64,000 nucleotides of DNA from the NCBI RefSeq assembly GCF_018861045.1, contig NZ_JAHKQJ010000007.1:1209511-1273510 (forward strand), read 5' to 3'. Shown here piece by piece: positions 16,583 through 25,213 of the stretch. Source of the stretch: Octadecabacter sp. B2R22. Its GTDB lineage: Bacteria > Pseudomonadota > Alphaproteobacteria > Rhodobacterales > Rhodobacteraceae. A model generated the notes under the pieces. The model was not told where the DNA came from. It made no database searches and saw only the letters and a program-made list of their open reading frames with translations. A program made the position numbers and the translations under genes. How positions within the stretch are numbered: the first letter of the stretch is position 1; each line of letters begins with the position of its first letter.

Positions 16583-17287
16583 CTACTTTGTGTTCACCCG
16601 CTTGATAAGCTCTTCACCGCTTTCTTTGCGCTCACTATAGCGTTCAACCAGATAATCGGCGCGCCCACGGGTCAGCAAAGTGAATTTCACCAGCTCTTCC
16701 ATGACATCAACCACGCGATCGTAGTTGCCTGAGGGTTTCATGCGGTCATTGTCGTCAAACTCCAAGAATGCCTTGGGCGTAGAGGACTGGTTCGGGATCG
16801 TGAGCAACCGCATCCACCGCCCCAAAATCCGTAACTGGTTAACCGCGTTGAAACTTTGCGAACCACCGTTCACCTGCATCACCGCAAGCGTCTTGCCTTG
16901 GGTCGGACGGACAGCCCCCATCGACAATGGAATCCAATCGATCTGGGTTTTCATGATCCCCGTCATCGCCCCGTGTCGTTCTGGTGAACACCAGACCATG
17001 CCCTCGCTCCAGTTCACCAGTTCGCGCAATTCTTGCACCTTTGGGTGATCCGCGTCCGTGTCATCAGGCAATGGCAACCCGCTTGGATTGAATGTCTTGG
17101 TTTCGGCGCCCAGGCGACGCAAGATGCGCGCCGCCTCTTCGGTCATCAAACGACTGAACGAACGATCTCGAAGCGATCCGTAAAGCAGCAAAATGCGCGG
17201 CGCATGGGTCAGACCATCACTGGCAAAAAGGCGGTCGGTGTCTGTGGTGCGAAAGTGGTCTTCTACGACGTTAGGTGTATCAGTCAT
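16583..17287 (-). CDS. arsH: Arsenical resistance NADPH-dependent FMN reductase ArsH
   Basis: 234 residues from ATG 17287; 14 in-frame codons upstream lack a better ribosome site. The flavodoxin-like motif [13 protein letters not shown] binds FMN phosphate, and [23 protein letters not shown] and [19 protein letters not shown] are characteristic ArsH stretches. ArsH oxidises methylated or aromatic trivalent arsenicals. It is divergent from an ArsR regulator whose operator lies between them. No arsenite pump (ArsB/ACR3) or ArsC is in the window. Confidence 0.95.
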
Positions 17288-17376
17288 CAGGGTATCTTTC
17301 CGTTTTTGGCAATGATGCCGCGCATTCATTTCGGCAAATACCGAATTGACTTTGACCTAAGTCGACTCACCCGAGC

Positions 17377-17413
17377 TTGTCAAGATTCGATATTTCGGCT
17401 ATTAACGAAATAT
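17377..17413 (+). promoter_or_regulatory. ArsR promoter with operator; predicted leaderless start
   Basis: TTGTCA (17377-17382), a 17-nt spacer and TATTAA (17400-17405) form a promoter whose expected start falls at about 17412, the A of the arsR ATG. A perfect inverted repeat ATATTTCG-N8-CGAAATAT (17390-17413) covers the -10 element and the start point. No Shine-Dalgarno precedes the ATG, consistent with a leaderless mRNA. A weaker repeat, ATTTCGG-N6-CCGAATT (17328-17347), lies on the arsH side. Confidence 0.65.
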
Positions 17414-17729
17414 GGATCAAGACAACGCAATCGAAGCTTTCTCTGCCCTCGCCCAACCCTCAAGGCTGGACGCGTTTCGTCTTCTTGTGCGCGCGGGCCC
17501 AAAGGGGCTGCCCGCGATGGAGATATCGCGCCAACTGGGCACAAAGCCGTCCACACTGTCTGGTCATCTGTCGATCCTGAAACGTGCGGGCGTATTGACG
17601 GCGACCCGCCATCAACGCGAAATCCACTACGCCGCAAATCTGGCGAATATCAATGAACTGGTTCAATTCTTGATCGCCGATTGTTGCAGCGGGCAACTGG
17701 ACGACTGCAAAATAACCCTCTGCCCCTAG
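17412..17729 (+). CDS. arsR: ArsR family arsenic-responsive repressor
   Basis: 105 residues with a winged-helix fold: AFSALAQPSRLDAFRLL opens helix 1-2, and the recognition region reads MEISRQLGTKPSTLSGHLSILKRAGVL. The usual ELCVCDL metal box of E. coli ArsR is absent; instead Cys91, Cys92, Cys99 and Cys104 cluster at the C-terminus, resembling the Acidithiobacillus-type ArsR in which C-terminal cysteines bind As(III). It most likely represses itself and divergent arsH through the operator overlapping its start codon. The last 4 nt overlap the convergent nsrR-like gene. Confidence 0.9.
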   Translation: MDQDNAIEAFSALAQPSRLDAFRLLVRAGPKGLPAMEISRQLGTKPSTLSGHLSILKRAGVLTATRHQREIHYAANLANINELVQFLIADCCSGQLDDCKITLCP

Positions 17730-18202
17730 GCACCAATAGACGCTGGCGAACACTCAACGGCGAGCTCCGGCTTCATCGCAAGCAATTCCACCAACCCGCA
17801 GTTCCCGCGCACCAGATCGTCTAGCGTCACTAAATCAAGCTCGTGATAAAACGCCTCAAGCGCGCGTGCGACGTAGGACCGCAACCGACATGTTGTTGCC
17901 AGCGGGCAAGTGTTTCGTTCCTTGTCAAAACACTCCGCAAACGGGATCTCGGTTTCAAAGACCCGAAAGACAGCGCCAATAGAAATCTGATCTGGCCGTC
18001 TGGCCAGTCGAATGCCCCCTGTCCGACCGCGCACGGTATCGACAAAACCTTCGACCTGGAGATTTTGGACCACCCGCGCGACATGATTGGTCGATGAATT
18101 ACACCGCTCAGCAATGTCGGATGTCCGAACAAGATCGCGGTCATTGACGGCACAAAACATCAACGTTCGGGCGGCAAGATTGGTTCGTGTCGTTAGACGC
18201 AT
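17726..18202 (-). CDS. nsrR: Rrf2 family regulator, NsrR-like (nitric oxide sensing)
   Basis: 158 residues from ATG 18202, preceded by AAGGA at 6 nt; 8 upstream in-frame codons are excluded. The N-terminal winged helix starts MRLTTRTNLAARTLMF and includes HVARVVQNLQVEGFVDTVRGRTGG. Three cysteines (AECFDKERNTCPLATTC) are placed as the [Fe-S] ligands of NsrR/IscR-like Rrf2 proteins, and LDLVTLDDLV closes the dimer helix as in NsrR. NsrR proteins lose repression when NO attacks the cluster. It is divergent from cydDC, and an NsrR-type site precedes cydA, so control of the NO-tolerant bd oxidase is likely. An IscR or RirA assignment is less fitting. Confidence 0.75.
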   Translation of the reverse strand: MRLTTRTNLAARTLMFCAVNDRDLVRTSDIAERCNSSTNHVARVVQNLQVEGFVDTVRGRTGGIRLARRPDQISIGAVFRVFETEIPFAECFDKERNTCPLATTCRLRSYVARALEAFYHELDLVTLDDLVRGNCGLVELLAMKPELAVECSPASIGA

Positions 18203-18253
18203 CTGGATTCCTTCGCTTTGAAGCAATATTTCACATCACAGATACCGGTTTCT

Positions 18254-18267
18254 TTGATCCAGATCAC
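18254..18267 (+). promoter_or_regulatory. FNR/FnrL-type site before cydDC
   Basis: TTGAT-CCAG-ATCAC matches TTGAT-N4-ATCAA at 9 of 10 positions. Its centre lies about 62 nt before the cydD ATG, which would allow activation from the usual -41.5 position with a start near 18302. Confidence 0.65.
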
Positions 18268-18322: not shown

Positions 18323-19954
18323 ATGACCCACGAACAAACCCCGACAGAAACGCGGCATCGACACAGTCGGATTGGCGGCGCACTGGCCGTTGCCTCGAGC
18401 CTGATCTGGTTGGTGCAGGCATTGGTCATTGCTCGGGTTCTGTCATCGTTGCTTATCGGGGCGTCAGTGGCGGCATGGTCGATGGGCGCTGCCATTTTGG
18501 GCCTCGGCCTTATCCGCTCGGCGCTCAATTATTTGGCGCAAGTTTACCTTAGCGCTGCAGCCGAGGCCGAGATCCAGTCGTTGCGCGCAGACCTCATCAC
18601 TGTCGAAACCGGAACGGCGGACCCGTCCGCCTTTGGTGGCGGCGGAGCAATCGCAGCGCTGGCGACCGAAAAACTCGAAGCATTGCGCCCCTATCTTCTT
18701 AGGTACAAACCTGCACGTGCGCGGGTGATGGTCGTCCCGATCGTCATCTTGATCATTACGGCTTGGTTCAGTTGGGCAGCTGCGATTGTGCTGTTTGCGG
18801 CTGGTCCGTTGATCCCGCTGTTCATGGCCTTGGTTGGCTGGGCCGCCAAAGAAGCGAGCGCGCGCCAGATGGTCGAAATCGGGTCACTGAACGACCTGTT
18901 GGCAGACCGACTAGCCGCCCTTTCAGACCTGAAACTAATTGGCGCGGGACCGCAGGTCATTGATGGTTTTGGCACCGCATCCACTTCGCTTCGAGAACGC
19001 ACAATGGCTGTTTTACGCGTGGCGTTTTTGTCCTCGACGGTTCTGGAACTCTTCTCGGCGCTTGGTGTCGCGATGATCGCTGTTTGGGTGGGTTTTGCAT
19101 TGTTGGGGGAACTTGCCTGGGGCACTTGGGGGCACCCTTTGACGCCTTTTGCAGGGATTTACCTTTTGCTTTTGGCGCCGGATTATTTTCAACCTCTCCG
19201 CGAACTGGCGGCGGCATGGCACGACAAATCGGCTGCAGATGCTGTGCAGGACGAAATCGAAACGTGGCGCAGCGAAAACCGCCCTTCCCTTCTGGGAACA
19301 GGAGCGAGCGCCAAACCTTTGCCGTTCATGGGGTTATCAGCGCGCGACCTTACAGTTCGGCGTGATGACCGCACACTGGAATATCAAGATTTCGACATCC
19401 AACCCGGTGATAGCATCGCTTTGACCGGGCCAAGCGGCGTCGGCAAGACAACCTTGCTTCGGGTGTTTGCGGGCCTTGAACGACCGGCAACTGGTGATGT
19501 GTTAATTGGCGGGGCGACGTTGGACGACACGACCGCAGATGCGTGGCGTTCCTCGCTTGGATGGATGCCCCAAGCGCCGCGTTTTTTGGGCCAATCGCTG
19601 CGCCAAAACATCGGGTTCGGACAAGAGCTGGATAAAGATGTATTGGATGCCACACGCGTAACTCCGATCATCGCCACCCTTCCCGCCAAAGAAAGCACCC
19701 TATTGGGCGAGACAGGCGCAGGACTATCTGGCGGAGAAGCACGTCGCGTGATGTTGGCGCGGGCGCTCCATCAACGCCCAAGCATTGTCTTTGCGGATGA
19801 ACCAACGGCGGATTTGGATGCGGACACCGCGCGCGATATTATTGACGGGCTTTTGGCCTACGTCGCACAGGGCGGAACATTGATCGCCGCCACCCATGAT
19901 TCAGGGTTGGTTTCCCGACTGCAACGACACATCGATCTGGGGGCAGCAGCATGA
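18323..19954 (+). CDS. cydD: Heterodimeric ABC exporter subunit CydD
   Basis: 543 residues from ATG 18323 (AAGGA 11 nt upstream); 35 codons of upstream open frame overlap the regulatory region and are excluded. The first ~320 residues hold about six membrane helices; the nucleotide-binding domain carries Walker A GPSGVGKTT, Q-loop MPQAPRFLG, signature LSGGEARRV and Walker B IVFADEPTADLD. CydDC exports cysteine/glutathione (and binds heme) and is needed to assemble the bd oxidase in the periplasmic-side environment. The stop overlaps the cydC start by 4 nt (ATGA). Confidence 0.93.
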   Translation: MTHEQTPTETRHRHSRIGGALAVASSLIWLVQALVIARVLSSLLIGASVAAWSMGAAILGLGLIRSALNYLAQVYLSAAAEAEIQSLRADLITVETGTADPSAFGGGGAIAALATEKLEALRPYLLRYKPARARVMVVPIVILIITAWFSWAAAIVLFAAGPLIPLFMALVGWAAKEASARQMVEIGSLNDLLADRLAALSDLKLIGAGPQVIDGFGTASTSLRERTMAVLRVAFLSSTVLELFSALGVAMIAVWVGFALLGELAWGTWGHPLTPFAGIYLLLLAPDYFQPLRELAAAWHDKSAADAVQDEIETWRSENRPSLLGTGASAKPLPFMGLSARDLTVRRDDRTLEYQDFDIQPGDSIALTGPSGVGKTTLLRVFAGLERPATGDVLIGGATLDDTTADAWRSSLGWMPQAPRFLGQSLRQNIGFGQELDKDVLDATRVTPIIATLPAKESTLLGETGAGLSGGEARRVMLARALHQRPSIVFADEPTADLDADTARDIIDGLLAYVAQGGTLIAATHDSGLVSRLQRHIDLGAAA

Positions 19955-21597
19955 AAAACCTCCTGAAATTGGCGCTTCTCCTTCTAAACGGTGAAAAGAA
20001 AGCATTTGCGCAAGGCATGGCCTTGTCCCTCACCGTGCTCATCATGGGCATCGCGCTGCTGTCGCTGTCCGGCTGGTTCATCACGGCAGCCGCCGCGGCA
20101 GGTTTGATCGGGTTGGGGACCGTGTTTAACGTATTTGGCCCATCCGCGATGGTTCGGTTTCTGGCACTGGGCCGCACCGTGGCGCGTTACGGCGAACGCC
20201 TTACCACCCATGACGCGACCCTGCGGGCCTTGTCGAACCTTCGCATTCGCCTGTTAAACGGCGTCCTTCACGCCCCTTACCGACAGTTGGAACGCCTCCG
20301 GGCGAGCGTGTTTTTGAACCGGGTGACCGCTGACATTGATGCACTGGACGGGTTGGCACTGCGGCTGCTGATCCCCGGGATCGCGGGCTTGGCGGTCATC
20401 GCGCTTACGGCGATCGCCGTTGGACTACTTGTCGATCCCTCCATCGCGTTAGTGATCCTAATTGGGTACGGGTTTGGACCGACTTTTGTCTTCCTCGTGG
20501 GGCAATCGCTTGCACAGCGCCCGTCGCGCAGAAACGAAGCAGGGATGCAGGCGCTGCGAAGCCGCGTCATTGACCTGATTACTGTGCGCGAAGAACTGAT
20601 CGCCTTTGGCCGAATCCGCCATACGCAAGAGAGCATCAATAAGGCCATCGCCTACCAATCACACGGCCAAAACACTGTTGAAAAAATCGAGCGTCAAACC
20701 GGTTTCTGCCTTGAAATGATGGGCTGGGGTGTTGTCGCACTTTCACTTGCGCTTGGTGCCTCGCTTACCCAATCGGGGTCGATCAGCGCCGCACAAGCAG
20801 CGATTGGCGTGTTTGCCGCGCTCGCCCTTTCTGAGGCAGTCGCTCCCGTGCGCCGCGCCTTGGCCGAGATCGGGCAGATGAGGTCCGCCGCGAAACGGGT
20901 CATCCCCCTTCTGGCAGACGCCGATGTTGAACCATCCAATGTCATTGTGGACGGCACTGATGCCCCCCTTGTTGCCGACGCGCTGGTCGTCAAACGTGAG
21001 CCAATTGGTGCCCCGTTGTTCGCGCCCCTAAGCTTTCGCGTGCGGCCCGGTGAAACCGTTGCTTTGACGGGTCGCAGTGGCAGCGGAAAGTCCACGGTTT
21101 TGCTTATGGTCGTGGGGCAAATCACGCCAAGCGACGGCAAGCTGTCTTACAAAGGATCAGCGCCGCATCTTGTTCCGACAGAGATCTTGACACACACCGT
21201 CGCGATGGTTCCACAGCGCCATGCACTGGTCGCCGGTACAATCGCCGAAAACCTAAGACTGGCCGCCCCCGCCGCGTCAGATGGTGACCTTTGGGACGCT
21301 TTGGAGGCCACCCAGCTTGCGGATGTTATTCGTGCCAAAGGTGGCATGGACAGTAGCCTCGGGTTTCGCGGAGTGGGTTTGTCGGGCGGTGAAGCACGCC
21401 GGCTTGTTCTTGCCCGTGCAATTTTGCGCAAACCCGCACTTCTTTTGCTAGATGAGCCAACCGAGGGACTTGATGCGCCACTGGCAAACGTCGTGCTAGC
21501 AGGTTTACGTCAGGCCTTGCCAGATGCCGCCTTTTTGATCGCAGCACATCGACCAGAAGAAGTGGCATTTGCAGATGAAATCATACACGTCGCTTAG
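19951..21597 (+). CDS. cydC: Heterodimeric ABC exporter subunit CydC
   Basis: 548 residues. N-terminal membrane domain of about six helices starts with GMALSLTVLIMGIALLSLSGWF, a typical CydC opening, followed by PSAMVRFLALGRTVARYGERLTTHD. Its NBD has Walker A GRSGSGKST, Q-loop VPQRHALVAG, signature LSGGEARRLVLARA and Walker B LLLLDEPTEGLD, and an H-loop AAHRPEE. Together with CydD it forms the exporter required for cytochrome bd maturation. The 140-nt gap to cydA carries its own FNR- and NsrR-type sites, so cydABX can also be transcribed alone. Confidence 0.93.
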   Translation: MKNLLKLALLLLNGEKKAFAQGMALSLTVLIMGIALLSLSGWFITAAAAAGLIGLGTVFNVFGPSAMVRFLALGRTVARYGERLTTHDATLRALSNLRIRLLNGVLHAPYRQLERLRASVFLNRVTADIDALDGLALRLLIPGIAGLAVIALTAIAVGLLVDPSIALVILIGYGFGPTFVFLVGQSLAQRPSRRNEAGMQALRSRVIDLITVREELIAFGRIRHTQESINKAIAYQSHGQNTVEKIERQTGFCLEMMGWGVVALSLALGASLTQSGSISAAQAAIGVFAALALSEAVAPVRRALAEIGQMRSAAKRVIPLLADADVEPSNVIVDGTDAPLVADALVVKREPIGAPLFAPLSFRVRPGETVALTGRSGSGKSTVLLMVVGQITPSDGKLSYKGSAPHLVPTEILTHTVAMVPQRHALVAGTIAENLRLAAPAASDGDLWDALEATQLADVIRAKGGMDSSLGFRGVGLSGGEARRLVLARAILRKPALLLLDEPTEGLDAPLANVVLAGLRQALPDAAFLIAAHRPEEVAFADEIIHVA

Positions 21598-21619
21598 GAC
21601 GTAACGGAAACACCGAAAT

Positions 21620-21642
21620 AATCTACATTTGAAATACATCTT
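21620..21642. promoter_or_regulatory. NsrR-type inverted repeat before cydABX
   Basis: Read on the minus strand, the left half is AAGATGTATTT (11 of 11 to the NsrR half-site AAGATGYATTT), then C, then AAATGTAGATT (8 of 11 to AAATRCATCTT): the 11-1-11 layout. It directly abuts the FNR box at 21643 and lies just upstream of the predicted -35 region. Confidence 0.6.
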
Positions 21643-21656
21643 TTGACACAGATCAA
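21643..21656 (+). promoter_or_regulatory. FNR/FnrL-type site before cydABX
   Basis: TTGAC-ACAG-ATCAA, 9 of 10 to the consensus. With a CATACT -10 element at 21677-21682 the predicted start is near 21690, placing the box centre at about -41, the class II activator position. Confidence 0.75.
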
Positions 21657-21694
21657 ATAACACATCTCAGAATCAGCATACTTGAATTTTAATC

Positions 21695-21709
21695 CGCATC
21701 CCTGATGCG
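21695..21709. promoter_or_regulatory. Inverted repeat in the cydA leader
   Basis: CGCATC-CCT-GATGCG, just downstream of the predicted start point. It is flanked by a direct repeat ATTTTAATC at 21686-21694 and 21711-21719 (25 nt apart). It could be a short mRNA hairpin or a second operator. Confidence 0.35.
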
Positions 21710-21736
21710 CATTTTAATCATTCAAGGAGCCTTCTC

Positions 21737-23350
21737 ATGGAGATCGGACTGGTCGAGCTGTCGCGCATGCAATTCGCGTTTACAGCCATGTATCACTTTC
21801 TCTTCGTGCCGCTAACGTTGGGTCTGTCGATCCTCGTTGCGATCATGGAAACCGTATATGTAATGACAAACCGCCCCATCTGGCGTCAGATGACCAAGTT
21901 TTGGGGCACACTGTTTGGCATCAACTTCGCGATCGGTGTCGCAACCGGCATCACGATGGAATTCCAGTTCGGCATGAACTGGAGCTATTACAGCCACTAT
22001 GTCGGTGACATTTTCGGGGCGCCCCTCGCCATCGAAGGCTTGATGGCGTTCTTCCTGGAGGCAACCTTTGTTGGTCTGTTCTTCTTTGGCTGGGATAAGC
22101 TCAGCAAGGTTCAGCACTTGGTTGTCGCATGGCTCGTTGCGATCGGTTCGAACTTCTCCGCGCTCTGGATCCTGATCGCCAACGGATGGATGCAAAACCC
22201 TGTGGGCGCTGAGTTCAACCCCGAGACAATGCGCATGGAAATGACCTCGTTCTTTGAAGTTCTGTTCAACGAAGTCGCGCAGGCTAAATTCGTGCACACA
22301 GTGTCGGCGGGTTATGTCACCGCGTCCGTCTTTGTTCTGGGTGTTTCGGCCATTTACCTGATCATGGACAAACACAAAGATCTGGCACGCCGCTCGATTG
22401 CTGTGTCTTCTGCGTTTGGTCTGGCTGCGGCTTTGTCGGTTGTCGTCCTCGGCGATGAATCCGGTTATTCTGCCAGCCACACACAACGCATGAAACTCGC
22501 CGCGATTGAGGCCATGTGGCACACAGAACCGGCCCCTGCCTCGTTTACGTTGATCGGCTTTCCCGACCAAGAAGCCCGCGAAACCCACTACGCTGTGCAC
22601 CTTCCTTGGGCCATGGGCCTGATCGGAACACGCAGCCTGACCACGGAAATCCCCGGTATCAACGAGTTGGTGGAAGAATCCGAAGTCAGAATTCGTGACG
22701 GCCTCATCGCTTATGACGCGCTGATGACCATCCGCGAACAGCGTGACGCCACACCACAAGCGGTACGTGACACGTTTGAGGCCCATTCCGAAAACCTCGG
22801 CTATTCTTACCTGCTTAAACGCTATGTCGATGATCCACGCGATGCGACTGAAGAGCAAATCCAGATGGCCGCTGACGATACCGTCCCCGGTGTTGCACCG
22901 CTGTTCTGGGCGTTCCGGATTATGGTTGGCCTTGGCTTTAGCTTTATCGCTGTGATGGCCTACTTCTTCTATCGGGCCTCGTTCCGGCAGATGCAGTTCC
23001 CGCGTTGGTCACTTTATGCTGCAGTTATCATCATCCCGACCCCGTGGATTGCTGCGGAACTCGGGTGGTTCGTTGCCGAATTTGGCAGACAGCCTTGGAC
23101 AGTGGATGGCGTTCTGCCAACCGCGATGAGTGCCTCGCACCTCAGCATTGCTGATCTGCTGATCACTTTGGCTGGCTTCCTCCTCTTCTATTCGGTCCTC
23201 TTCGTGATCGAGATGAGCCTGATGGTGAAATACATCCGCAAAGGCCCATTCCAAGACGTGGAAGAAACCAATGAATGGCAGGAACGCCACGAAGCACGTC
23301 TTCGCGCCAAGATCGATGTTCCTTCCTCCAACACCACACCAGCGGAGTAA
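21737..23350 (+). CDS. cydA: Cytochrome bd quinol oxidase subunit I
   Basis: 537 residues. The opening VELSRMQFAFTAMYHFLFVPLTLG carries the His that binds heme b595, FVHTVSAGYV the His for b558, and the quinol-binding loop is the long type (about residues 240-370: KLAAIEAMWHTEPAPASFTL, GYSYLLKRYVDD), as in E. coli. About nine membrane helices. It oxidises ubiquinol and reduces oxygen with high affinity in the inner membrane. CAAGGAG precedes the ATG. cydB follows after 5 nt. Confidence 0.97.
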   Translation: MEIGLVELSRMQFAFTAMYHFLFVPLTLGLSILVAIMETVYVMTNRPIWRQMTKFWGTLFGINFAIGVATGITMEFQFGMNWSYYSHYVGDIFGAPLAIEGLMAFFLEATFVGLFFFGWDKLSKVQHLVVAWLVAIGSNFSALWILIANGWMQNPVGAEFNPETMRMEMTSFFEVLFNEVAQAKFVHTVSAGYVTASVFVLGVSAIYLIMDKHKDLARRSIAVSSAFGLAAALSVVVLGDESGYSASHTQRMKLAAIEAMWHTEPAPASFTLIGFPDQEARETHYAVHLPWAMGLIGTRSLTTEIPGINELVEESEVRIRDGLIAYDALMTIREQRDATPQAVRDTFEAHSENLGYSYLLKRYVDDPRDATEEQIQMAADDTVPGVAPLFWAFRIMVGLGFSFIAVMAYFFYRASFRQMQFPRWSLYAAVIIIPTPWIAAELGWFVAEFGRQPWTVDGVLPTAMSASHLSIADLLITLAGFLLFYSVLFVIEMSLMVKYIRKGPFQDVEETNEWQERHEARLRAKIDVPSSNTTPAE

Positions 23351-23355
23351 AACCG

Positions 23356-24516
23356 ATGATCCTTTTTGAATTGATCGAATACGATATCCTTCGTGTGATC
23401 TGGTGGGCGCTTTTGGGCGTGTTGCTGATCGGATTTGCCCTGACGGACGGGTTTGACATGGGCGTTGGGGCCTTGCTCCCCTTCGTCGCCAAGACTGACG
23501 TTGAGCGCCGCATCGCGATCAACACGGTTGGGCCTGTCTGGGAAGGCAACCAAGTTTGGTTCGTCCTTGGCGGCGGTGCGATCTTCGCCGCTTGGCCCCC
23601 GCTTTATGCCGTAAGCTTCTCGGGGCTGTATCTGGCGATGTTTGTGGTTCTTGCCGCGCTCATCGTGCGCCCTGTGGCTTTCAAATACCGTTCCAAACGC
23701 GAGGACCCTAAATGGCGGTCTCGTTGGGATTGGGCGCTGTTTGCCGGTGGCGCTGTGCCTGCCCTTTTGTTCGGGGTTGCGGTTGGGAACGTCCTTTTGG
23801 GCCTGCCGTTTTACCTGACCGAAGACCTGATGCCGATGTATCCGGGTAACGCTGCGATGAAATTCATCGGCCTGCTGCGCCCCTTCGCGCTGCTTGCTGG
23901 CTTGGTTTCATTTTCAATGTTGCTTATGCACGGTGCGGCATGGCTTTCCTTGAAGGCCGAAGGTGCTGTTGCCGAACGTGCCCGTGCAATCGGCGTCAAA
24001 GCCGGGATCGTAGCGGCTGCGGGCTATGCGCTTGCTGGTCTTTGGCTTGCGGTTGGCATTGACGGTTTCGCCTTGGGTGAGGTTGTTGCGAACGGCCCGT
24101 CCAACCCGCTCTATTCGGACGTGACACGTGATGGATCATGGCTGGCCGCCTATGCTGCCCGCCCATGGATCGCTATTGCGCCGATTGCGGGTTTTGTGGG
24201 CATCGCGCTTGCTGTGATGGGTCTGCGCGCGGGTCGCGAAGTCTCAACACTGTTGTGGTCGAAGCTCGGGATTTTCGGGATCATCTCATCCGTCGGACTG
24301 ACAATGTTCCCCTTCATCCTGCCCTCCACCATTGATCCAAATAGCTCTCTGACCGTCTGGGACTCTTCGTCCTCGCACCAGACCCTGTTCATCATGCTGG
24401 TGGTCACGGCGATCTTTATGCCGCTGATCCTGATGTACACCGCATGGGTCTACAAAGTGCTTTGGGGCAAGGTCACCGAAGCTGACGTCACCGAAAACTC
24501 TCACAGCGTTTACTAA
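23356..24516 (+). CDS. cydB: Cytochrome bd quinol oxidase subunit II
   Basis: 386 residues from ATG 23356; GGAG overlapping the end of cydA is the ribosome site, and 27 upstream in-frame codons inside cydA are excluded. The start MILFELIEYDILRVIWWALLGVLLIGFALTDGFDMGVG is a textbook CydB beginning, with Asp residues used in heme d/proton entry, and NTVGPVWEGNQVWFVLGGGA follows. About eight helices. Ends 12 nt before cydX. Confidence 0.97.
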   Translation: MILFELIEYDILRVIWWALLGVLLIGFALTDGFDMGVGALLPFVAKTDVERRIAINTVGPVWEGNQVWFVLGGGAIFAAWPPLYAVSFSGLYLAMFVVLAALIVRPVAFKYRSKREDPKWRSRWDWALFAGGAVPALLFGVAVGNVLLGLPFYLTEDLMPMYPGNAAMKFIGLLRPFALLAGLVSFSMLLMHGAAWLSLKAEGAVAERARAIGVKAGIVAAAGYALAGLWLAVGIDGFALGEVVANGPSNPLYSDVTRDGSWLAAYAARPWIAIAPIAGFVGIALAVMGLRAGREVSTLLWSKLGIFGIISSVGLTMFPFILPSTIDPNSSLTVWDSSSSHQTLFIMLVVTAIFMPLILMYTAWVYKVLWGKVTEADVTENSHSVY

Positions 24517-24528
24517 GGAGAAAATAAT

Positions 24529-24666
24529 ATGTGGTATTTTGCTTGGCTACTCGGACTGCCCCTCGCCGCTATGTTCGCCGTCCTAAACGCGATCTGGCTG
24601 GAGATGCGCACAGACGCCTGCTTCTCAGATGAGGGCGACTGCCCCATGGGTGATCACACCCACTGA
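24529..24666 (+). CDS. cydX: Cytochrome bd small subunit CydX
   Basis: A 45-residue protein found by reading downstream of cydB, preceded by AAGGAG at 8 nt. It starts MWYFAWLLGLPLAAMFAVLN, the family's single membrane helix with the W-Y-F-x-W-x-L-G motif and the Glu in IWLEM. CydX stabilises the heme pocket of the CydAB complex. The soluble tail DACFSDEGDCPMGDHTH is longer than the shortest CydX proteins and includes two cysteines. Confidence 0.93.
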   Translation: MWYFAWLLGLPLAAMFAVLNAIWLEMRTDACFSDEGDCPMGDHTH

Positions 24667-24775: not shown

Positions 24776-25213
24776 ATGAAGAAGCTCCTCCTCGCCGCCT
24801 GCTCCGCACTGTCGCTCTCAGGTCCAGCCTTGGCACAAGAGGCTCCAGACACGCTGGTGACTATCTTGACCGCAGCGGAACCCCAGACACAATTGATGGC
24901 GATGGTTCTGGCCATGCAGGCGGCCCAACAAGGCGCTGCACCTCACATCATGCTATGCGGCCCAGCGGGCGATATCGCCCTTCTGGACGCCCCAGAAAGC
25001 GCCACCGCACCGCAGCCGCCGCGCGACATGAGCCCCAAGGGGCTGTTAACCCAGATCGCCGCCCTGCCCGGTGCCAAAGTCGAGGTTTGTGCCATCTATC
25101 TTCCTGGCAAAGGCCTGCAAGCTGACGCGTTGATGGACGGTGTCACAGTCGCCCAGCCCCAAGCGATGGCCGCCGCGATGATTGCACCAAACGCACGCAT
25201 CGCAAGCTACTAA
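24776..25213 (+). CDS. Exported DsrE-like small protein
   Basis: 145 residues from ATG 24776 with AAGGA about 10 nt upstream. A signal peptide MKKLLLAACSALSLSGPALA precedes the mature start QEAPD. The rest resembles a DsrE/F-fold subunit: MVLAMQAAQQGAAPHIMLCGPAGDIALL is the first beta-alpha unit, and GAKVEVCAIYLPGKGL carries the Cys position used in sulfur-relay relatives. It is the last gene after cydX, and could act in periplasmic sulfur or thiol chemistry linked to CydDC, but this is inference. A short hairpin (25220-25247) with one G-U pair follows the stop. Confidence 0.65.
   Translation: MKKLLLAACSALSLSGPALAQEAPDTLVTILTAAEPQTQLMAMVLAMQAAQQGAAPHIMLCGPAGDIALLDAPESATAPQPPRDMSPKGLLTQIAALPGAKVEVCAIYLPGKGLQADALMDGVTVAQPQAMAAAMIAPNARIASY

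Follow-up and report, generated by a model that had tools for sequence, protein, structure and literature searches.

Predicted Rrf2-type operators beside FNR boxes in the cytochrome bd oxidase locus of Octadecabacter sp. B2R22

Cytochrome bd is the oxidase that bacteria use as a fallback at low oxygen and under respiratory poisons. The regulator encoded beside the cyd genes of Octadecabacter sp. B2R22 can be compared with several described systems of the Rrf2 family, of which NsrR of Escherichia coli and Streptomyces coelicolor shares with it the family, three cluster cysteines and a palindromic operator of 21–23 bp (predicted in our case). NsrR also provides a precedent for action at FNR-dependent promoters: in the excerpted text of PMC8139620, nap and nrf are put under both FNR and NsrR, and the E. 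coli nrf promoter is reported to be down-regulated by NsrR from an upstream site (Browning 2010, cited there). The promoter architecture described below is therefore of a known kind. NsrR differs from our protein in that the latter carries Asn8 rather than Asp8 and scores below the cut-off of the NsrR model, and in that searches of this genome for NorB, NirK and a complete flavohaemoglobin found no NO-detoxification regulon. The NsrR operator core, ATGYATTT/AAATRCAT, also differs from GCATC/GATGC and CACATC/GATACC in two of the sites reported here (sites II and III, respectively).

RirA of the Rhizobiales shares with our protein Asn8 and the three cysteines, and its model gives the top curated-model score; it differs in that this score is below the cut-off, in falling outside the 52-row tree group of our protein, and in having a different operator. 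What RirA controls is iron uptake (PMC6748827 and PMC10510648, in excerpt) rather than an oxidase cassette. In Rhodobacter sphaeroides, MppG (RSP_2888) is a Rhodobacteraceae Rrf2 repressor that is bound at its own promoter, but it targets photopigment and other genes, and its authors, in the excerpted text, found no shared DNA motif (PMC4263372). We liken MppG to our protein by description only, not by sequence. Finally, CtaR of Acidithiobacillus ferrooxidans is encoded by an Rrf2-type gene in an oxidase-biogenesis cluster, for which regulation was proposed from bioinformatics; the oxidase there is of the aa3 type, not bd, and the excerpt of PMC2754497 gives no operator.

In the open-access literature searched, we found no paper that ties an Rrf2 protein to the control of bd oxidase in these bacteria, and the use of such an architecture by a dedicated Asn8 Rrf2 protein for a bd oxidase appears to be new. 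A further paper concerns RegAB, NsrR and cydAB in Burkholderia (PMC8191878).

Predicted operators in the two cyd control regions

The window, by which we mean the whole 64-kb stretch of DNA analyzed, contains an Rrf2-family gene on the minus strand followed by cydD, cydC, cydA, cydB and cydX. The initial annotation had placed the Rrf2 gene two operons upstream; it directly adjoins cydDC and is divergent from it. The features of the locus are as follows.

17726..18202, minus strand: Rrf2-family regulator gene, 158 aa, divergent from cydD (Pfam Rrf2, 115 bits)
18228..18250, unstranded: site III, predicted Rrf2-type operator between the Rrf2 gene and cydD (16.5 bits)
18254..18267, unstranded: second FNR-like box, beside site III (TTGATCCAGATCAC; 9/10)
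18323..19954, plus strand: cydD (top NCBIfam match TIGR02857 CydD, 427.9 bits, narrowly missing the cut-off of 435)
19951..21597, plus strand: cydC (top NCBIfam matches two CydC models, both below cut-off; position after cydD)
21620..21642, unstranded: site I, predicted Rrf2-type operator, the site of the initial annotation (AATCTACATTTGAAATACATCTT; 17.7 bits; ends at the FNR box)
21643..21656, unstranded: FNR box of the cydA promoter (TTGACACAGATCAA; 9/10)
21677..21682, plus strand: predicted −10-like CATACT, from aligned promoters
21691..21713, unstranded: site II, predicted Rrf2-type operator at the predicted cydA transcription start (AATCCGCATCCCTGATGCGCATT; 19.7 bits)
21737..23350, plus strand: cydA, bd oxidase subunit I (PF01654, 574 bits)
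23356..24516, plus strand: cydB (TIGR00203, over cut-off)
24529..24666, plus strand: cydX (TIGR02106, over cut-off)

At the margins of the locus, an ArsR-type gene (17412–17729) and the Rrf2 gene share 4 bases where their ends meet, and the ArsR-type gene is adjoined in turn by an FMN-reductase gene (16583–17329); tblastn found neither of the two in the other 80 cyd loci described below. Downstream of cydX, positions 24776–25213 encode a 145-aa, secreted-looking protein that is without a Pfam or NCBIfam match at E 0.001, and 17 of the 80 cyd loci contain a relative of it.

The repeat of site I, the FNR box that it abuts and the CATACT hexamer read letter for letter as had been claimed. The half-site scores given with them had the right values, but with the sides exchanged or the minus strand read: on the plus strand, site I agrees at 8/11 positions on the left and 11/11 on the right with the NsrR consensus AAGATGYATTT-N-AAATRCATCTT. 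Sites II and III, which had been overlooked along with the FNR-like box at 18254–18267, fit this consensus poorly (6+6 and 4+7 of 11). The 64-kb window has four FNR boxes of at least 9/10, and the two cyd control regions account for two of these. When palindromic pairs around the FNR box were counted without any consensus, 4 to 9 of 11 pairs matched; with the best of twelve centres chosen, these counts are suggestive only. The centres of sites I and II are 71 bp apart, which does not amount to complete helical turns, and we do not propose looping between the two.

Starting from random seeds, we derived a palindromic motif from 48 upstream regions, namely those of cydA and of the Rrf2 gene at 24 loci where the two are linked, with the window excluded from training. 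The learned motif has the consensus ATCCGCATCTAAGATGCGGAT with 13.2 bits of information, and its 84 sites above 7 bits include some that are weak or overlap an FNR box. When the window was scanned with this motif, the best three places in 64 kb were 21692–21712 (19.7 bits), 21621–21641 (17.7 bits) and 18229–18249 (16.5 bits), which correspond to sites II, I and III. With training restricted to distant loci, by leaving out the nine loci that share a ten-row Rrf2 clade with the window, site I ranked first in the 64 kb, site II second and site III third or fourth. A weaker match at 18244–18264 (13.4 bits) overlaps site III as well as the FNR-like box next to it.

For comparison, 100 sequences of 64 kb were simulated with the dinucleotide composition of the window; their maximum scores averaged 13.9 bits and the highest was 18.1, reached once, so that a lone site of 17.7 bits is unusual yet possible. 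Places of at least 16 bits are expected 0.13 times per window versus the three seen, all of which lie in the two cyd control regions. Additionally, in 5000 shuffles of the 139-bp cydC–cydA region, the best score was at least as high as that of site I in 0.02%. These results confirm that site I is more than a product of chance; the site is real and conserved. The earlier proposal of an operator abutting an FNR box in the cydA promoter is supported, in the form of a predicted operator of the Rrf2 type.

Conservation and association with the Rrf2 gene

A search for CydA over 149 genomes of the family found a near-complete relative, with at least 67% identity, in 25, and in at least eight of these, the window's genome counted in, the coordinates place an Rrf2 relative some 3.5 kb upstream, on the opposite strand. 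A further scan returned 80 cyd loci, 19 of them with a linked Rrf2 gene; some of the others are cut contigs, in which linkage is not judgeable. These 19 loci and five further ones make up the 24 linked loci of the training set. For the promoter comparison 78 of the 80 loci were used, the start of cydA being cut in the other two. Under two-fold cross-validation (near clade versus far), the motif reached at least 10 bits in 16 of 19 linked versus 16 of 59 unlinked cydA promoters (Fisher p = 2e-5), and the median score was 15.5 bits in the former versus 4.9 bits in the latter. An FNR box of at least 9/10 is present in 16/19 linked versus 21/59 unlinked promoters, and the best motif match is separated from the box by −1 to 3 bp at 13 of the 19 linked loci. 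There are exceptions: the motif falls below 9 bits in three of the 19 linked promoters (L089, L104 and L121), and three of the 19, that of Labrenzia among them, are missing a 9/10 FNR box. In Labrenzia (L107) and Gemmobacter aquatilis (L116), the Rrf2 gene lies beside cydA with no cydDC between, and the motif is kept. The motif is also present in the Rrf2–cydD region of many linked loci.

Closer to the window, the cydA FNR box is 79–100% identical across nine near relatives, and site II is 62–86% identical in seven of the nine, with shifted spacing and low values in the other two. The stretch between the FNR box and site II is 11–26% identical in seven of these relatives; in the same seven the FNR box is 79–93% identical, as is site II at 62–86% in six. 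Site I was left out of these figures on account of its variable distance from the FNR box. In most near relatives, an AT-rich stretch resembling GAATAY or AATATA is found at about the −10 region. Within the near clade, site II begins 47–51 bp past the first position of the FNR box; an FNR box centred at −41.5 would put site II at the transcription start.

The association extends in part to genomes in which the two genes are apart. An Rrf2 protein was searched for in 36 of the 59 unlinked genomes, 15 carrying the motif (in one case at slightly under 10 bits) and 21 lacking it, and a relative of at least 125 bits was found in 11 of the 15 versus 7 of the 21 (one-sided p = 0.02; the 125-bit line was set after the list had been seen, and related genomes are not independent). 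Taken together with the linkage counts, this indicates that motif and regulator go together, if imperfectly, even where the regulator is encoded in trans. Among 43 cyd-unlinked Rrf2 loci, three further ones giving no usable start, a motif of at least 12 bits precedes the Rrf2 gene itself in seven, two of which (L051 and L208) are the same place; self-regulation is thus not general in the wider Rrf2 subfamily. The sites and their tie to the neighboring Rrf2 gene are well supported. As the motif occurs in that gene's own promoter region and tracks its linkage, the earlier suggestion that this gene probably encodes the binding protein is supported.

The Rrf2 protein, its likely mode of action and its signal

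The Rrf2 protein belongs to the Rrf2 superfamily by both TIGR00738 (93.6 bits against a cut-off of 73.3) and Pfam Rrf2 (115 against 30). It falls below the cut-offs of the NsrR model NF008240 (91.4 of the 182 bits needed) and of the RirA model NF008886 (134.3 of 193), the latter still being its highest NCBIfam curated score. Its closest match in the PDB is S. coelicolor NsrR (E = 1.6e-19). It carries Asn8, Cys91, Cys99 and Cys105, as do 25 of 25 linked relatives; at residue 8, the NsrR proteins of E. coli and S. coelicolor have Asp and S. meliloti RirA has Asn. In a phylogenetic tree, the window protein lies in a clade of 21 rows, 18 of them cyd-linked with itself counted (support 100/95), which is nested in a group of 52 rows that includes neither RirA nor E. 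coli NsrR. Resolution at the base of the tree is poor, with S. coelicolor NsrR forming a long branch beside the 52-row group, and the cyd linkage of the Rrf2 gene requires nine changes on the tree. The genome also encodes, close to ccoN, an FnrL-like protein with the N-terminal cysteine motif CSDCPIRHRAVCSKC, in keeping with the involvement of FnrL that had been proposed.

From the sequence evidence, we consider it probable that the neighboring Rrf2 protein is a local, dedicated repressor of FnrL-activated cyd operons, and that it is relieved by damage to, or loss of, an Fe-S cluster. An Rrf2 dimer would bind a palindrome of 21–23 bp, approximately AWYYGYATYnnnRATRCRRWT, at three places. FnrL would activate cydA at low oxygen from about −41.5, and Rrf2 protein bound at site I, upstream of and touching the FNR box, would hinder it. 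At site II, located at the predicted cydA transcription start, bound protein would block RNA polymerase, while site III would be occupied between the Rrf2 gene and cydDC, likewise beside an FNR box. The Rrf2 protein might instead act as an activator when bound at site I, but site II argues for repression, and repression of the FnrL-activated cyd operons appears to be the most likely mode of action. Repression would be lifted once the cluster is damaged or lost, be it through oxygen, a shortage of iron, or NO or some other oxidant. The AND logic of the initial proposal is an inference.

It is possible, though we lean against it, that the chemistry is like that of RirA, as a special case of this explanation: a three-Cys cluster with no fourth protein ligand would be labile to low iron and to oxygen, and cyd would be derepressed by iron shortage or oxidative damage. 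Asn8, shared with S. meliloti RirA, and the top score of the RirA model (134 bits, but under the cut-off of 193) point in this direction, whereas the target is a terminal oxidase rather than iron uptake, and the cluster of the Rrf2 protein is itself a prediction. TGA-N9-TCA, which we take to be the RirA box (IRO-box pattern), is absent from the cydC–cydA region, though it occurs once in the Rrf2–cydD region and 27 times over the window. In favor of this reading, an Asn8-to-Asp exchange in RirA itself yields a stable, NsrR-like cluster that no longer responds to iron (PMC10510648, in excerpt). RirA is, on the other hand, stated to be absent from Rhodobacteraceae in the excerpted text of PMC4618611.

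The reading put forward initially, in which the Rrf2 protein is an NO-sensing NsrR and expression of cydABX requires both low oxygen and NO, is unlikely. It can draw on S. coelicolor NsrR as the closest solved relative, on the three conserved cysteines C91, C99 and C105, on the full agreement of the right half of site I with the NsrR consensus, on an operator length of about 23 bp, and on the nap and nrf precedents. The regulator, however, groups apart from E. coli NsrR and reaches only half the score that the NsrR model needs, and sites II and III are poor matches to the NsrR consensus. Asn8 stands in place of Asp8, which in NsrR is a cluster ligand (PMC5411485, in excerpt). In the genome, NorB was not found, as the two heme-copper oxidases there are CtaD- and CcoN-like; the search for NirK stayed below the cut-off; and no complete flavohaemoglobin (Hmp) was found, the only matches being partial, reductase-like and below cut-off. 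These three therefore cannot be targets of the regulator. A genome search for NnrS gave nothing, the search's own control being likewise silent. Neither NsrR as the regulator nor NO as the signal is thus borne out. NO arriving from outside may still act as the signal, although these searches lend it no support, and cluster damage in general is favored over NO as such.

Lastly, it is very improbable that the palindrome is bound by another factor, such as a Crp/Fnr or RegA-type protein, and that the Rrf2 linkage is incidental: RegA activates cydAB in R. capsulatus (PMC5359404, in excerpt) and the motif reaches 10 bits in 16/59 unlinked promoters, but it associates with linkage and with Rrf2 relatives in trans, recurs in the Rrf2–cydD region of the window and of many linked loci, and has a length that fits the 23-bp NsrR operator (PMC9338935, in excerpt).

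Genome-wide matches and the cyd cassette

The 3.3-Mb genome was scanned with a pattern derived from the motif, allowing at most one mismatch, a setting outside which weaker sites may fall. There were 46 matches versus 16 for the reversed pattern, and among the 46, site II is top, site I sixth and site III joint ninth. Of the best 17 matches outside the window, 14 lie in coding frames, L162 among them, and three (L168, L170 and L176, with 16.2, 15.3 and 14.1 bits) lie at or just before a gene start. With the cyd sites among the best ten of 46 and the outside matches mostly in coding frames, a regulon centred on cyd is likely, and further targets are possible.

We draw no conclusion from the three matches near gene starts. 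L168 may lie over the start of a small gene, L170 (G000:C7:722228; 15.3 bits) may coincide with the start of a histidine-phosphotransferase gene or lie slightly ahead of it, and L176 precedes what is presumably a ribonuclease-E-like gene.

The arrangement of Rrf2 gene, cydDC and cydABX is found across Rhodobacterales, in some other Alphaproteobacteria and also on an Allorhizobium megaplasmid. In the sole congener among the 149 genomes (G145), there is no close bd oxidase, only a relative of 36% identity, and no Rrf2 match at E 0.001; it is as if the cassette had been gained or lost as a unit. We regard it as plausible, if somewhat short of probable, that these genes form a portable, self-regulated bd-oxidase cassette, with a regulator from an Asn8 subfamily of Rrf2 proteins that is separate from both NsrR and RirA and has its own operator. 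Two Fe-S proteins, FnrL and Rrf2, would then be wired at one promoter such that low oxygen turns on the oxidase but damage to a cluster is also sensed. A local Rrf2 switch with three predicted operators by FnrL boxes would offer a small system for two Fe-S sensors sharing one promoter, and the motif could be used to seek targets of an Rrf2 group that is common in the family, with MppG perhaps one of its members.

On plasmid unnamed3 of Allorhizobium pseudoryzae (L183; 1.27 Mb, Rhizobiaceae), the same divergent Rrf2–cydDC–cydA order is seen. The Octadecabacter genome itself encodes another Asn8 Rrf2 protein (L003, G000:C7:511818–512243), whose gene adjoins that of a Crp/Fnr protein without the N-terminal cysteine motif (L225, G000:C7:511129–511323). 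The tree neighbors of L003 are directly divergent from a distant CydA relative (32–36% identity) in genomes G120 and G003 and lie about 1.3 kb from one in G105; we take this distant relative to be of the cyanide-insensitive type.
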